Origin: Candidatus Neomarinimicrobiota bacterium | GTDB lineage: Bacteria; Fidelibacterota; Marinisomatia; Marinisomatales; TCS55 | Assembly (NCBI GenBank): GCA_018651745.1 | Contig: JABIDL010000022.1 | Location: forward strand, 1-64,000 | Reading direction: 5' to 3' | DNA: 64,000 nt | Shown: in pieces, positions 6,830 through 38,722 of the stretch | Layout of the letters: each line of letters begins with the position of its first letter | Position numbering within the stretch: position 1 is the stretch's first letter | Program-made: the position numbers and the translations under genes | The notes under the pieces: model-generated | What the model was told of the DNA's origin: nothing | Databases searched by the model: none | The model's input: the letters and a program-made list of their open reading frames with translations, nothing else

Positions 6830-8826
6830 TCAACACAAAATTGAAAATTGAAAAACTTCGGAAAGAATTGGATGATCATAATTACCGGTATTATGTATTA
6901 GACGATCCCATTATTTCTGATTCAGAGTGGGATGTTCTTTTCCGTGAATTGCAAGAATTAGAAAATGCAAATCCCCACCTCGTGTCTCCGGAATCGCCTA
7001 CCCAGCGCGTTGGCGCAGAACCGCTCTCATCCTTTGGAAATGTGACACACCGAATTCCCATGCTATCGCTTCAAAATGGTATGGATGAAGATGAGTTGAA
7101 GGCATTTGACAATCGAATGAAAAAAGGGTTGGAGTTGGATTGGGTAGAATACGCTGCGGAACCAAAACTTGATGGAGTTGCCGTTGAGTTGGTTTACGAA
7201 AATGGACACTTCGTATCTGGATCTACTCGCGGAAATGGCGTGGTTGGAGAAGATATCACTCAAAACCTGAAAACAATCCGTGGAATTCCCTTAAAACTAC
7301 GTGGTAGCGATAATCATCTTCCATCTATCCTCGAAATTCGTGGAGAAATTTTCATTAGTAACCTCGATTTTGAGAAACTTAATCAAGCGCAGGAAGCATC
7401 AGGAAAAGAAAGATTTGCAAACCCGCGCAATGCCGCTGCAGGAAGCCTTCGCCAATTAGATTCTGCTATCACCGCTAGTCGCCGTCTTTCTATTTATTGT
7501 TATCAGCCTGGATTTATCGAAGGCGAATCTTTCGAAACACAAATAGATTTTCTTAAACAAATAAAAACGTGGGGACTTCCGGTAAATCCGGAAATTGAAG
7601 TTATGGCGGGGATAGATGCTGTTTTGAACTACCATCGTAAACTTGAATCAATGCGGGAAAACCTTCCATACGAAATTGATGGAACCGTTTTTAAAGTCAA
7701 TAACCTAACATTTCAGAATGATCTCGGAATACGCAGTAGAACTCCACGGTGGGCAATCGCCGGGAAATTCAAAGCCCAGCAAGTAACAACCATTGTGAAG
7801 GATATCATTGCATCCTTGGGGCGTACCGGCGCCGTTACGCCAGTCGCCACACTCAACCCGGTTGTGGTCGGCGGAGTAACCGTTGCACATGCTACACTGC
7901 ATAATCAAGACGAAATTGATCGAAAAGACATTCGCATCGGTGATACAGTTCTCATTCAGCGGGCGGGAGATGTGATTCCAAAAATTGTTCAAGTCATCAA
8001 AAATAAACGTCCCAATAAAACATTACGCTACACCCTTCCTACATCCTGCCCGGAATGCAACCATACAGTTTACCGTCCGGAAGGTGAGGCAGTAGCGCGA
8101 TGCCAAAATCTATCCTGTCCTGCTCAAGTGAAACGAAGGATTCAGCACTTCGTATCAAAAAATGCTATGGATATAGATGGTCTTGGTGAAAAACTGGTAA
8201 ACCAACTTGTAGATGAAAAATTGGTTTCATCAATTGATACGCTCTACCATCTTACGGAAATTCAAATGTCGGAATTAGATCGCATGGGTGAGAAATCTGC
8301 TCAGAATATTTTAGCTTCATTGGAATCTTCTAAACAAACCAATTTTCACCGATTTGTATATGCGCTTGGCATTCGTAATGTTGGCGAACATGTTGCGAAC
8401 GTATTAGAAAAAGCATATCGTGGTGATATGGAGTCGTTCATGTCAGCTGAACTGGACGATCTAGAAGCAATTGATGAGATTGGACCAATCGTTGCAGAAA
8501 CCATAGTGAATTTTTGGAATGATGAACAAAACAAAACTGTGGTAAATGCCTGTTTTAATCTGGGAATTAAATTAGAGAAACTTTCATTCCAGGCTCGAGG
8601 AATACTGGATGGAAAATCTTTTGTTTTTACCGGCTCTCTTGAATCAATGACTAGAAATAAAGCAAAAAATGCCATAGAAAATCTCAGTGGACGAGTTAGT
8701 GGGTCGGTAAGTAAAAAAACAGATTTTGTCGTAGCCGGTCCGGGATCCGGAAGTAAAAAGAAAAAAGCAGAGAAACTTGGAATTAAGGTTTTAACGGAAG
8801 AAGAATTTTTAGTGATGATTACATAG
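6826..8826 (+). CDS. ligA: NAD-dependent DNA ligase LigA
   Basis: 666 residues, normal length for bacterial LigA, which seals nicks during replication and repair using NAD+. Order seen: the Ia domain that binds NMN (residues 1-~65, 'HNYRYYVLDDPIISDSEWD'); adenylation domain with the lysine nucleophile in EPKLDG (Lys114) and 'RFANPRNAAAGSLRQLD'; OB domain ('GRTGAVTPVATLNPV'); four-cysteine zinc finger (CPECNHTVYRPEG...ARCQNLSC); helix-hairpin-helix region ('GIRNVGEHVANVLE', 'EIGPIVAETIVNF'); and a C-terminal BRCT domain ('LDGKSFVFTGSLESMTR'). All key parts are intact. A hairpin follows its stop codon. Confidence 0.97.
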   Translation: MINTKLKIEKLRKELDDHNYRYYVLDDPIISDSEWDVLFRELQELENANPHLVSPESPTQRVGAEPLSSFGNVTHRIPMLSLQNGMDEDELKAFDNRMKKGLELDWVEYAAEPKLDGVAVELVYENGHFVSGSTRGNGVVGEDITQNLKTIRGIPLKLRGSDNHLPSILEIRGEIFISNLDFEKLNQAQEASGKERFANPRNAAAGSLRQLDSAITASRRLSIYCYQPGFIEGESFETQIDFLKQIKTWGLPVNPEIEVMAGIDAVLNYHRKLESMRENLPYEIDGTVFKVNNLTFQNDLGIRSRTPRWAIAGKFKAQQVTTIVKDIIASLGRTGAVTPVATLNPVVVGGVTVAHATLHNQDEIDRKDIRIGDTVLIQRAGDVIPKIVQVIKNKRPNKTLRYTLPTSCPECNHTVYRPEGEAVARCQNLSCPAQVKRRIQHFVSKNAMDIDGLGEKLVNQLVDEKLVSSIDTLYHLTEIQMSELDRMGEKSAQNILASLESSKQTNFHRFVYALGIRNVGEHVANVLEKAYRGDMESFMSAELDDLEAIDEIGPIVAETIVNFWNDEQNKTVVNACFNLGIKLEKLSFQARGILDGKSFVFTGSLESMTRNKAKNAIENLSGRVSGSVSKKTDFVVAGPGSGSKKKKAEKLGIKVLTEEEFLVMIT

Positions 8827-33731: not shown

Positions 33732-34793
33732 TTATTCTGAGTCCAACAGGGATTGTTGTTCTGCCAACTGAAGGGATTCAATCATTTCAAATAAGTCACC
33801 ATCTAAATTTTCTTCTAAGCGATAGGATGTATAGTTAATTCTATGATCCGTAATTCTTCCTTGGGGAAAATTGTAAGTGCGAATTTTTGCAGATCGATCG
33901 CCAGTGGAAACCATCGACTTCCTTTCAACCGCACGTTCTTTAGCTTGCCGTTCTTGTTCGGCGGCAAGAAGACGAGCACGCAAAACCTTTAATGCTGCTG
34001 CTTTATTTTTATGTTGAGATTTTTCATCCTGGCAGGTTACCACTAATCCGGTTGGTAAATGGGTAATTCGAATAGCAGATTCTGTTTTATTCACATGCTG
34101 GCCGCCTGCACCGCTCGCCCTATATGTATCAATTTTTAAATCCTGATCTAGGACTTCAATATCAACCTCTTCTGCTTCTGGAAGAACTGCAACTGTTGCG
34201 GCGGAGGTGTGAACCCGCCCGCTTGTTTCCGTTTTTGGAATTCTTTGAACCCGATGAACACCGCCTTCAAATTTCATGAGGCCATAGCAACCTTCGCCTT
34301 TTAGAGAAAAAGTTACTTCTTTGAATCCTCCAATGCCCGTTTCGCTAATACCAATAGCCTCTTTGGTCCATTGATTTCTTTCCGAAAACCGTTCATACAT
34401 CCGATACAAATCTGCAACAAACAATCCGGCTTCATCTCCACCTGTTCCTGCACGAATTTCAATAATGGTGTTTTTATCGTCATTAGGATCTTTGGGGATA
34501 AGCATCACTTTTAAAGCTTCCTCAGAGTCTTTTTTATTTTCTTGAAGCGTTTTTAATTCAGCTTGAGCGATCGATTTTAATTCTTCATCACTTCCTTTGA
34601 GAATTTCAAGGTCATCATTTATTTGCTCAATTAAAGCAAGATATTTATCGCCCTCTAACACAATGGGCGATAAATGACGATGTTCGCGTGCAACCTCTTT
34701 TAATTTATCTGAATTAGATAAAACAGCTTGTTCTGTCATCAGTTGTTCTAATTCCCCATGGCGCGCAATAACGGATATAATTTTATCTTTCAT
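33732..34793 (-). CDS. prfA: Peptide chain release factor 1
   Basis: 353 residues, full length for RF1, which reads UAA and UAG. The GGQ motif for peptide release is in 'YRASGAGGQHVNKTESAIRI'. Domain 2 codon-recognition text includes 'RVQRIPKTETSGRVHTSAAT', which fits RF1. The rest matches: 'EIRAGTGGDEAGLFVADLYR', 'KSMVSTGDRSAKIRTYNFPQ' and 'RITDHRINYTSYRLEENLDG'. It is followed directly by prmC, whose product modifies the GGQ glutamine. It begins 89 bases after the rpmE stop. Confidence 0.97.
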   Translation of the reverse strand: MKDKIISVIARHGELEQLMTEQAVLSNSDKLKEVAREHRHLSPIVLEGDKYLALIEQINDDLEILKGSDEELKSIAQAELKTLQENKKDSEEALKVMLIPKDPNDDKNTIIEIRAGTGGDEAGLFVADLYRMYERFSERNQWTKEAIGISETGIGGFKEVTFSLKGEGCYGLMKFEGGVHRVQRIPKTETSGRVHTSAATVAVLPEAEEVDIEVLDQDLKIDTYRASGAGGQHVNKTESAIRITHLPTGLVVTCQDEKSQHKNKAAALKVLRARLLAAEQERQAKERAVERKSMVSTGDRSAKIRTYNFPQGRITDHRINYTSYRLEENLDGDLFEMIESLQLAEQQSLLDSE

Positions 34794-34882
34794 TTGAAAG
34801 TGTTTCTATGTAATTCCTCCCATACATAAAAATGACCCTTGGCTTCCGATAGTCGAAAGAACAAAGGTCATTGTAAGATTGG

Positions 34883-35089
34883 TTATTGAGTCTTTTCGCC
34901 GTATTTCTTTTTGAATTTTTCAATACGACCTGCCGTATCAACCAGCTTTTGCTTTCCGGTAAAAAACGGATGGCAGACTGAACAAATTTCAATCCGCTGG
35001 TCGCCAACGGTACTAAACACTTCAAAGGTGTGTCCGCAAGCGCAGTGAACTGTTCCTTTTTTATAATCCGGATGGATGTCTGTTTTCAT
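34883..35089 (-). CDS. rpmE: 50S ribosomal protein L31 (zinc form)
   Basis: 68 residues matching bacterial L31: '[20 protein letters not shown]', '[20 protein letters not shown]', then a basic tail ([10 protein letters not shown]). Four cysteines (two in HCAC, two in CSVC) are present, so this is the zinc-binding type rather than the cysteine-free paralogue made under zinc starvation. The start has AGGAGAA-type spacing. It sits between the aminotransferase and prfA genes, the common rpmE-prfA-prmC order. Confidence 0.96.
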
Positions 35090-35101: not shown

Positions 35102-36301
35102 TCAATTCAGTTTTAATAATGCTGTTTTAATTCTTTTCATACCATCTTTAATTGTTTTCGAATTGGTGGCAAACGAGAGCCGAATATGCCCGGGAGCGCC
35201 AAAACCATCACCTGGGACGGTAACAACACGTGCAGTTTCCAATAAATAATCACATAAATCAAATGAATCATTCATCGTTTTTCCATTGATTTTCTTACCC
35301 AGATAATGCGAGAAATCAGGAAAAACATAAAAAGCGCCATTGGGTACAACGCAGGATATATGCGGGATTTCTTTTAATAGTTCTAGCATTAAATCACGCC
35401 GTCTTAGAAACGTTGTGCGCATTTCACTCACAGCGGATTGATCCCCGTTAAGCGCTTCTACAGCGGCCTTTTGCCCAATAGAATTTGCGCAGGATGTAGC
35501 CTGACCCTGAATTTTTGACATCGCTTTAATAATAGTTTTATTCCCCGCAGCATATCCAATTCGCCATCCGGTCATTGCATAAGTCTTTGATAAGCTCATA
35601 CACGTTAGAACCTCAACATTGTTATGATTTAAAGTTTGCGTACTTGTGAATTCGTCATTAAAAACAAGGCGCTCATAACATTCGTCAGAAATAATAACCC
35701 AGTGATGTTTGGCGGCAAGATCGAGCAACATTTTTACCGCTTCGTTTGACCAAACTCCGCCTGTAGGATTAGAAGGCGAATTCATGATGACGCCCTTAAT
35801 GTTGCTGTTTATTTTTGACTCAAGTTCATCAAAATTGGGTTCAAACTGTTTATCCGGGTTCGTACCAATAATGATCGGCTCTGCCTCTGACAGAGTCACA
35901 AATTCCGGAAAAGAAACCCAATAGGGTGAAAAAATAATGACCTGATCACCCTCCTGAAATAACACCTGACACGCAAGGTAGAGACTTTGTTTTTCACCAT
36001 TGGATACAAGAATTTGATCTGGCGTGTATTCAAGATGGTTTTCACGATTTAATTTTTTACAAATCGCTTCCCTCAAATCAATCATGCCTGCGCCAGATGT
36101 GTATTTCGTAAACCCTGCGTCCATAGCTTCCTTTGCAGCATTGCGAATATTCTCCGGCGTATTGAAATCAGGTTCCCCAACACTAAAATTGACAATATTA
36201 ACTCCTTGGGCACGGAGCTCGGCTGCCTTGCTAGTCATTTCAAGAGTGAACGACGGTTTAACGCGGGTCACTCGATCGGCTAATTGAACAGATTTGGTCA
36301 T
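35102..36301 (-). CDS. aspC: Pyridoxal-phosphate aminotransferase (aspartate aminotransferase, class I)
   Basis: 399 residues. Class I fold with 'SVGEPDFNTPENIRNAAKEA', 'GFTKYTSGAGMIDLREAICK', 'NSPSNPTGGVWSNEA' (cofactor contact Asn), and the lysine that binds pyridoxal phosphate in 'CMSLSKTYAMTGWRIGYAAG'. A C-terminal arginine lies in 'GHIRLSFATN'. This is the Ib subgroup that includes bacterial aspartate and prephenate aminotransferases. It converts aspartate and 2-oxoglutarate to oxaloacetate and glutamate; a wider substrate range is possible. It ends 12 bases before rpmE and starts two bases after the Cas6b-like gene. Confidence 0.9.
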   Translation of the reverse strand: MTKSVQLADRVTRVKPSFTLEMTSKAAELRAQGVNIVNFSVGEPDFNTPENIRNAAKEAMDAGFTKYTSGAGMIDLREAICKKLNRENHLEYTPDQILVSNGEKQSLYLACQVLFQEGDQVIIFSPYWVSFPEFVTLSEAEPIIIGTNPDKQFEPNFDELESKINSNIKGVIMNSPSNPTGGVWSNEAVKMLLDLAAKHHWVIISDECYERLVFNDEFTSTQTLNHNNVEVLTCMSLSKTYAMTGWRIGYAAGNKTIIKAMSKIQGQATSCANSIGQKAAVEALNGDQSAVSEMRTTFLRRRDLMLELLKEIPHISCVVPNGAFYVFPDFSHYLGKKINGKTMNDSFDLCDYLLETARVVTVPGDGFGAPGHIRLSFATNSKTIKDGMKRIKTALLKLN

Positions 36302-36303
36302 AT

Positions 36304-37329
36304 TTAAAGATCGTGCCTTTTTTTATGATATTCATCCGAATTGAAATTTCCTTCAGATGATTTGTTCGGTTTTTGTGCCGGTTTCCTGCGCACTTGAGGC
36401 TTACGCTTTTTGGGGGGTTCAACTTTTCCTGACATATACTCATCCTCTACGATGTCAAATTCTTCGGATAACACCTTCTTTGCTCTTTTTACTTTGGGCT
36501 TGGGCTTTTTTCGTGCTGATCTCTGTCTTGGTTTGGGAACTTCTTCTAAATTGACCGCCTCAACTTCAGACTCGGTAACCGTTTCTTCCATATCCGGAAT
36601 TGGTTCTCCAACTTTTTCCATCTCCTTTTTATTGAATTGAAACATATCAGGATTAAATAGACCAAACACAGCACCATAACCTCTTGTGATTCCGTTACCT
36701 ATTCCCATATAATTAGGAAGAAGAAAATTGGTTCGAAATTCTCCTGTAAAGGCACCCCAACCATTTTCGTCAACCGGTTTAGGAAACAAAGACTTCAATG
36801 CAACTTTTGTGAATAAATTTTCCCCTAAATCAATATCCATCTCCCGCGCCAAAAAAACAAGATTTTGACCTAAAAGGCGGTTAAGAAAATGTACACGTTC
36901 TGGAGCGTTTGGGAGAAATCGGTACCGTCCACCGGTTGTTTGGTTTAAAGCAACCCATGGAGTGATAAACCTGTATCGAATCAGACGGCTAATTGGTTGA
37001 AAATGATCATCGTGTAATTCATTTTCTGAATCAAGAACTTCAAATGTTATGTTGCCAAAATCTAAATCTTTCATTTTTTCTACGACCGATAAAATCGGAT
37101 CCACTCCTTCTTTGACTCCAACAAGATAAATTTGCTCATTCAAAATTTTAACCTGAACACGTGGATAAAGAAATCTATCGCGATATTGTCCATTTAGCAT
37201 AGGAACAATCTCCTCGTCAGGAAAGGTTTTCATAATAACGCCTTTTACTTGATAGGGAGTTTTACGAACGGGTTTATCGGTGGCCAATCGCGCTGTGATT
37301 GTGCGAATACCAATATTATTAGAATCCAT
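36304..37329 (-). CDS. Orphan Cas6b-like RAMP protein with basic C-terminal tail
   Basis: 341 residues. The first ~225 residues look like Cas6b: the N-terminal ferredoxin-like half has 'YQVKGVIMKTFPDEEIVPML' followed by 'RFLYPRVQVKILNEQIYLVG' and 'VKEG'. The C-terminal half ends in the Cas6 glycine-rich loop GIGNGITRGYG (209-219), exactly the GhGxxxxxGhG pattern. In Cas6b enzymes the 'LLHNH' segment supplies the cleaving histidines; here it reads 'VPMLNGQ' and there is no histidine before residue 106. Residues ~230-341 are a disordered, acidic then strongly basic tail (PKPRQRSARKKPKPKVKRAK, KKRKPQVRRKPAQK). No CRISPR array or other cas gene is nearby. It lies between rho and the aminotransferase. 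A noncleaving RNA-binding role is inferred. Confidence 0.65.
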   Translation of the reverse strand: MDSNNIGIRTITARLATDKPVRKTPYQVKGVIMKTFPDEEIVPMLNGQYRDRFLYPRVQVKILNEQIYLVGVKEGVDPILSVVEKMKDLDFGNITFEVLDSENELHDDHFQPISRLIRYRFITPWVALNQTTGGRYRFLPNAPERVHFLNRLLGQNLVFLAREMDIDLGENLFTKVALKSLFPKPVDENGWGAFTGEFRTNFLLPNYMGIGNGITRGYGAVFGLFNPDMFQFNKKEMEKVGEPIPDMEETVTESEVEAVNLEEVPKPRQRSARKKPKPKVKRAKKVLSEEFDIVEDEYMSGKVEPPKKRKPQVRRKPAQKPNKSSEGNFNSDEYHKKRHDL

Positions 37330-37380
37330 ATTTATACCTCATGTTAGCTAACTGTACTAATTTGCTGAATCAATTTACAT

Positions 37381-38628
37381 TTACTGACTCATTGTATCTA
37401 AAAATTCTTCATTCGTTTTGCTTCGTCTCATTCGTTCCTGTAAAAATTCCATAGCTTCAACTACATTCATTTCGTTTAGTAATTTTCGAAGAATCCACAT
37501 CCTGGAAAGCGTTTTCTTTCCCAATAGCAATTCTTCTTTGCGGGTTCCTGATCGAATAAGGTCAAATGATGGAAAAATCCTTCTGTCTGCTAATCTCCTA
37601 TCAAGAACCAACTCCATATTCCCCGTACCTTTAAACTCTTCAAAAATAACTTCATCCATTCTACTTCCCGTGTCAATAAGGGCCGTAGCAACAATAGTGA
37701 GAGAACCTTTTTCTTCGGTGTTCCGGGCTGACCCAAAAAATTGTTTTGGTTTTTTTAGAGCATTGGCATCTACTCCACCAGATAAAATCTTTCCGCTATG
37801 GGGAATAACAGCATTGTGTGCCCTTGCAAGTCTCGTAAGGCTATCAAGGAGAATAACTACATCGTGTCCGTATTCAACCATTCTCCGTGCTTTTTGTAGA
37901 GCCATGTCAGCTACCGCTACATGTCTTTCCGGCGGTTCGTCAAAGGTAGAGCTTACCACTTCTGCATTTACGTGGCGTTTCATATCTGTTACTTCTTCCG
38001 GACGTTCATCAATCAGCAAAATGAGCATTTTTGTTTCCGAATGATTCGCTAAGATAGCATTTGCAATTTTTTGAAGCAGAATTGTTTTACCGGTTTTCGG
38101 CTGAGCAACAATTAACCCACGCTGTCCTTTCCCAATAGGAGCAATTAAATTAAGAATGCGCATAGATAGATTCTTTGATTCAACCTCTAAATTGAATTTT
38201 TCTTCGGGATAAAGTGGCGTAAGGTTATCAAAAAGTATGGTTCGTTTAATCTTTTCAACAGATTCCCCGTTCACCACATCCACCTTTAGCATAGCATAAA
38301 ACCGCTCTTTTGCTTTTGGTGGGCGGATTTCACCGGAAACTTCATGTCCCGTACGTAATCCAAAACGCTTGATTTGAGATGGGCTTACATAAATATCATC
38401 CGGACCGGGAAGATAATTAAAATCCGGGCTCCGTAAAAAACCGTATCCTTCCTGCAAAACCTCTAGCACTCCCCGCGCAGTTACATTGCCGGCTTTTTCC
38501 TTTTGGGCTGCTAAAATCTGAACAATTAATTCTTGTTTATTCAGCCCTGATAAATCTTGAATTTCAAGTTTACTGGCCATTTCGGTGAGTTTATTTATGT
38601 TTAACGCTTGTAGTTCATTAACATCCAT
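37381..38628 (-). CDS. rho: Transcription termination factor Rho
   Basis: 415 residues. The N-terminal helical domain ('[20 protein letters not shown]') precedes the RNA-binding OB fold ('[20 protein letters not shown]', '[20 protein letters not shown]'). The ATPase core has Walker A '[12 protein letters not shown]', Walker B '[17 protein letters not shown]', the Q loop '[20 protein letters not shown]' and the R loop '[20 protein letters not shown]'. All parts needed for RNA-driven translocation are present. The following gene encodes the Cas6b-like protein, another probable RNA binder, 51 bases downstream. Confidence 0.97.
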
Positions 38629-38722
38629 ACATTATATACCTTTTGAATTTTATTGGGTCTTCTATAGAAAATAGCTCTCGCGAGGAACAATTTTGGGAGA
38701 ACACTCTTGTAGATAAATTACA

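Follow-up and report, generated by a model that had tools for sequence, protein, structure and literature searches.

Directly behind the transcription termination gene rho, in a 64-kb window (the whole stretch of DNA analysed) from a member of the phylum Fidelibacterota (Neomarinimicrobiota), lies a gene that very probably encodes a domesticated, CRISPR-independent Cas6b, devoid of catalytic residues and belonging to the rho operon. The host phylum consists of mostly marine bacteria, mostly without CRISPR, and the evidence assembled here suggests that the Cas6b-like protein is an RNA-binding partner of Rho or of the rho operon. We propose the name rho-linked Cas6b (Rlc6), and refer to the following features of the window:

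37381..38628, minus strand: rho, transcription termination factor (TIGR00767), directly upstream of the Cas6b-like gene; adjacent in 109/109 loci
37330..37380: spacer of 51 nt between rho and the Cas6b-like gene
36304..37329, minus strand: rho-linked Cas6b-like gene, 341 aa (Pfam, PADLOC and PDB matches; AlphaFold and Foldseek)
36655..37329, minus strand: Cas6b core, residues 1-225, two predicted RAMP (ferredoxin-like) domains (Pfam stretches 8-102 and 115-221; pLDDT mostly 92-98 over 11-220)
37186..37209, minus strand: site aligned with the catalytic HNH of Cas6b, occupied by IVPMLNGQ, residues 41-48 (alignment to 4z7k; H38 and H40 absent in 107/107 rho-linked copies)
36673..36705, minus strand: glycine-rich loop GIGNGITRGYG, residues 209-219, with N where Cas6b enzymes have K/R (alignment)
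36307..36654, minus strand: charged tail predicted to be disordered, residues 226-341 (low pLDDT over most; charge blocks)
36307..36345, minus strand: conserved C-terminal peptide FNSDEYHKKRHDL, residues 329-341, predicted helix 332-339 (motif in 78/84 members of the order)
35102..36301, minus strand: aminotransferase gene (labelled aspB), 2 nt downstream of the Cas6b-like gene; directly behind rho in several lineages without the Cas6b-like gene

A Cas6b fold without the Cas6b catalytic histidines

An earlier note, made from the letters of this DNA, had read the open reading frame at 36304-37329 as a Cas6b-like protein. The coordinates are correct, the frame lying on the minus strand and encoding 341 aa, and the identity is borne out by profile and structure matches. 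The protein matched Pfam Cas6b_C (1e-22) and Cas6b_N (3.9e-11), both above the curated cut-offs, as well as the PADLOC Cas6b profile (4.7e-37) and, over residues 27-222, the solved Methanococcus maripaludis Cas6b (4z7k; E 4e-23). As judged from these sequence matches, the homology is real and far above chance. The structure comparison proposed in that note pointed the same way. AlphaFold2, run on 52 aligned sequences from the window and the loci, returned a confident core (pLDDT mostly 92-98, residues 11-220) followed by a largely disordered tail, and Foldseek placed Cas6b on top for this core (E 2e-17, TM 0.81 on target 4z7k) and other Cas6 proteins next, with TM scores of 0.79-0.85 to other Cas6b chains, normalised by target. 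Since the modelled core is confident and Cas6b ranks first, the predicted Cas6b RAMP fold is beyond doubt, and the protein joins both domains of the family, Cas6b_N and Cas6b_C, to that fold. A single-sequence model of one tailless member reached a pLDDT of 35, too low to be informative.

The catalytic histidines are missing from this core. The HNH of 4z7k aligns with P-M-gap in the window protein, and phmmer's own alignment sets VHNH of 4z7k opposite VPML, so that both catalytic histidines are gone, as had been claimed. Two histidines are important in the M. maripaludis enzyme (PMC3652601), and neither is retained in any of the 107 rho-linked copies; the window protein therefore lacks the histidine pair of a Cas6b endoribonuclease. 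The further observation that its first 105 residues contain no histidine holds for the window protein, as read from its sequence, but not for the family, in which only 36/107 relatives share it; the alignments indicate that the family trait is the loss of two catalytic positions and not of all histidines. The GhGxxxxxGhG loop that the note had picked out is present as GIGNGITRGYG at residues 209-219. At its K/R position, rho-linked copies carry N in 103/107 cases and C or S in the remainder, compared with K in 9/9 copies of the phylum located away from rho and R in 4z7k. Other residues, including R57, F159, E163, N212 and I214, are conserved in the rho-linked copies but not in the cas-type copies.

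The gene occupies a fixed slot behind rho

The neighbouring gene at 37381-38628, called rho in the earlier note, matches TIGR00767, and in the neighbourhood survey suggested there, run across Fidelibacterota, the adjacency held throughout this lineage. In all 109 loci that hold both genes (a count that includes some genomes twice, reached through two collections), rho is the immediate upstream neighbour, transcribed from the same strand, with a median gap of 39 nt, and these loci were chosen by similarity to the Cas6b-like protein without reference to rho. Only two gaps exceed 300 nt, one with a run of N inside (L052) and one where rho was called in two pieces (L100). A RAMP/Cas6b protein captured from CRISPR, without catalytic histidines and tied to rho, is strongly supported, and the tie to rho is much firmer than a single window could reveal. 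The other neighbours vary: aspB is missing from several loci, the order in family f23 is rho, Cas6b-like, ubiA, dnaE (L152-L154; L215), and elsewhere the operon context includes rpmE, prfA and prmC. Lineages without the gene keep an otherwise identical operon, several of them with aspB following rho (L180, L190, L192, L189, L181, L183), and the Cas6b-like gene is therefore a clean presence/absence between rho and the next gene. Part of the rho linkage is nevertheless explained by operon inertia, since the neighbouring genes are also well conserved.

Several further features of the locus were considered. A 680-aa open frame that resembled a rho-Cas6b fusion (G065) resolved into two separate ORFs. 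Rho residue N71, a candidate for tracking gene presence, is N in three gene-less lineages and S or H in several holders, and so follows ancestry; no Rho residue was found to track gene presence independently of ancestry. One genome bin with 5% contamination (G124) holds the complete rho operon twice, each time with the Cas6b-like gene (L171 and L172), reflecting either a duplication or a mixed bin. The window ORF at 34783-35025 lies where relatives encode rpmE (ribosomal protein L31), and appears to be an out-of-frame reading of that gene.

Upstream, the leader between folC and rho has a median length of 96.5 nt, tends to form hairpins and opens with a conserved TGTAAnTT in most members of the window genome's order; in the window, the folC-rho spacer (38629-38722) carries this word as TGTAATTT right after folC. 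The spacer often contains a short C-rich-loop hairpin of variable sequence. The idea that TGTAAnTT serves as a promoter word throughout the window was rejected, since it has fewer matches there than chance.

Two kinds of Cas6b in the phylum

The nine copies read away from rho are of the ordinary Cas6b type, with the second histidine in 8/8 full-length copies and both in 7/8. The HNH copies of the phylum (L160, L164, L166, L167, L170 and others) share the fold family and Pfam domains of the window protein, to which they are ~30% identical, but keep the histidines and a GIGKQxARG loop. Several reside in cas8b-cas7-cas5-cas3 loci, and ordinary type I-B genes surround them: Cas8b (Cas_TM1802) and Cas7 in L160 and L167, Cas5 in L160, and Cas3 in L164 and L167, the last two also with arrays.

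In the tree, the rho-linked copies form one side of a branch with support of 96/95, and their inner order follows taxonomy; core distances correlate with Rho distances (r = 0.80, 98 loci). The simplest history has the gene captured once, near the base of the phylum, then inherited vertically and lost several times; a further transfer into the slot behind rho is a conceivable alternative. Between the window genome and two congeners, the core has a dN of 0.05-0.07 and rho 0.04-0.05, compared with 0.11-0.12 for prfA, 0.12-0.14 for aspB, 0.12-0.13 for murI and 0.29-0.33 for folC, a comparison in which synonymous sites approach saturation. The core thus evolves about as slowly as Rho. This low core dN, together with dN/dS values of 0.02-0.30 in closer pairs with moderate dS (0.09 to 0.64), demonstrates that the gene is under purifying selection.

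Two copies away from rho deserve mention. One, beside a glmS-like gene in a genome without Cas1 (L159, G003:C18:62000-74717, 7244-7900), is a second, solo Cas6b that reads NNH, not HNH, and has lost half of the catalytic pair; it is possibly another Cas6b leaving CRISPR. The other is an intact-looking HNH Cas6b directly beside a gene with an ORF6N domain, a phage-type domain, and with no adjoining cas gene identified (L162, G051:C148:1-9000, 873-1571).

Distribution independent of CRISPR

A profile built from deep members detects a Cas6b-like protein in 130/245 genomes of the phylum; in four of them (G081, G083, G209, G218) the one copy detected was not beside rho, so that 126/245 hold the rho-linked kind. 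Among near relatives, 54/61 carry the gene and 3/61 carry Cas1. The window genome's order accounts for 130 of the genomes analysed, 106 of them outside the reduced-genome family f15, and the gene is found in 99/106. In six of the seven exceptions the assembly has no full rho either, and the locus is therefore probably simply absent from it; the seventh is G026. Many lineages of the phylum keep rho without the gene, which is thus not essential to Rho. Family f15 itself (0.4-1.0 Mb, e.g. G060 and G050) lacks the gene throughout and keeps rho in most genomes, a natural deletion experiment.

CRISPR machinery is rare among the holders: Cas1 occurs in 12/126 and type I-B Cas7 in 4/126, and within the window genome's order the counts are 5/99 and 0/99. 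As the earlier note had reported, no CRISPR-like array was found within the 64-kb window, and its statement that other cas genes are absent there agrees with the whole genome (1.86 Mb, 96% complete), where protein searches found no Cas1, no type I-B Cas7 and no Cas6b_C match other than the one described here. The other cas genes that would mark a type I-B component were thus missing both next to the gene and genome-wide in these searches. The window yielded no known RNA families, and no relatives of the protein were found in viral contigs.

A charged tail and C-terminal peptide specific to one order

In other orders, only 2-32 residues follow the core. Members of the window genome's order add 70-161 residues (median 117), poorly conserved except at the very end, and the alternation of acidic and basic blocks described in the earlier note is evident in the tail of the window protein. 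The tail was added late, in one order, and does not belong to the ancestral protein. Its end carries the motif FN[ST]xx[YFH]HKKQHx[LFIV] or a near variant in 78/84 members of the order. No other ORF in the loci read, which covered about half of the pattern matches, had the peptide near its end; that search did not cover arginine codons AGR at the fourth residue. Docking motifs are usually built in this way, as a conserved peptide at the tip of a flexible linker, and the peptide probably docks on a fixed protein partner.

Possible roles and alternative explanations

Taken together, the best-supported mechanism would be RNA binding without cleavage, linked to Rho or to the rho transcript. An ancient, domesticated Cas6b paralogue took its place behind rho early in the history of Fidelibacterota; both catalytic histidines disappeared, and the gene has been inherited with rho since, with several losses. 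Its RAMP core would most likely still bind RNA, as a hairpin or short sequence in the manner of Cas6b, without cutting it, and the protein would serve as an RNA-binding co-factor of Rho, steering termination or RNA loading; in the window genome's order, a flexible charged linker would end in the conserved peptide that docks on a fixed partner. As a whole, this picture of a domesticated Cas6b paralogue acting as a non-cleaving RNA binder that works with Rho has about an even chance of being correct, while the co-factor role, considered by itself and supported by linkage and co-inheritance with Rho, is a tentative proposal that falls somewhat short of even. Several results speak against the picture: no RNA target was found, the rho leader showing no shared structure; no Rho residue tracks the gene independently of ancestry; many lineages keep rho without the gene; and operon inertia accounts for part of the linkage.

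The position of the gene could also be understood if the protein made no contact with Rho and instead bound an element of the rho-operon transcript, in the leader or spacer, to tune the synthesis of Rho and of downstream products. The same-strand rho neighbour found everywhere across a short spacer, and a leader that is hairpin-prone and starts with TGTAAnTT in most members of the order, are consistent with such an autogenous regulator. Yet a search for a shared RNA element with RNAalifold recovered no consensus structure from 29 leaders, and the leaders differ greatly in sequence among lineages that share the gene; we consider this explanation unlikely. The presence of rpmE, prfA and prmC in the operon, along with the basic blocks of the tail, would fit an RNA-binding protein linked to the ribosome or translation, with a basic tail contacting rRNA and an operon position that is merely historical; we consider this slightly less likely still, since the tight link is to rho and not to translation genes, as the f23 gene order illustrates, and the basic tail is absent from members of the class and phylum outside the order.

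Missing histidines alone are no proof of missing cleavage, since a Sulfolobus Cas6 cleaves without the canonical histidine (PMC3652601), and the protein could be an active ribonuclease whose unusual active site serves to process one specific host RNA. In favour of this reading, Y55, K61 and R/K216 are conserved in the rho-linked lineage, where R57 is new and 95% conserved. Against this, both histidines and the loop lysine are gone in all members over a great divergence, while the non-rho copies of the phylum keep them, and we regard cleavage as improbable. Finally, Cas1 in 12/126 holders is the one observation favouring a CRISPR component acting in trans with distant arrays, or a defence or anti-defence protein. 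This reading is largely refuted and retains very little probability: Cas1 is absent in 114/126 and type I-B Cas7 in 122/126 holders, the type I-B systems read carry their own HNH Cas6b, and viral contigs contained no relative.

Relation to known Cas6 proteins and significance

The rho-linked protein shares two RAMP domains, Cas6b_N plus Cas6b_C, and a glycine-rich loop with M. maripaludis Cas6b, the type I-B crRNA endoribonuclease (4z7k/4z7l). It differs in the loss of HNH, in the loop change from K/R to N, in having no array in the window and no cas operon, in its fixed place behind rho and, in one order, in its charged tail and C-terminal peptide. Pyrococcus 3ufc and 3qjj, which we take to be proteins of the Cas6 fold that are relatives of the main Cas6 enzyme or bind RNA separately from it, are distant (13-17% identity in the structural match). 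Sulfolobus solfataricus Cas6 (Sso1437) is likewise a RAMP Cas6 without the canonical histidine, but it acts on CRISPR repeats, still cleaves, and has no described rho linkage (PMC3652601). In papers drawn mostly from outside subscription journals and preprints, searches for standalone, orphan or inactive Cas6, or for Cas6 in connection with Marinimicrobia or Rho termination, brought up no description of a protein like this one. Reviews present exapted CRISPR components chiefly as reduced systems, many of them on mobile elements (PMC6452270, PMC12669027). The recent CRISPR classification mentions exaptation, notably by mobile elements, and a term search of it for solo or isolated cas genes returned nothing (PMC12669027).

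In the present case, one Cas protein seems to have turned into a housekeeping gene that is passed on vertically across much of a phylum, within the rho operon. An annotation as 'Cas6' in these genomes does not imply that a CRISPR system is present. Rho is a near-universal termination factor, and a once-only, early conversion of a CRISPR crRNA-processing protein into a standing, non-cleaving Rho partner is a possibility we hold at a little less than even. If true, this would be the first Cas6 known to serve housekeeping alone, and it would define a new class of factors in Rho-dependent termination. Rho-linked Cas6b offers a direct handle on two questions: what proteins with the Cas6 fold bind when they act outside CRISPR, and by what means Rho is targeted in bacteria distant from E. 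coli.
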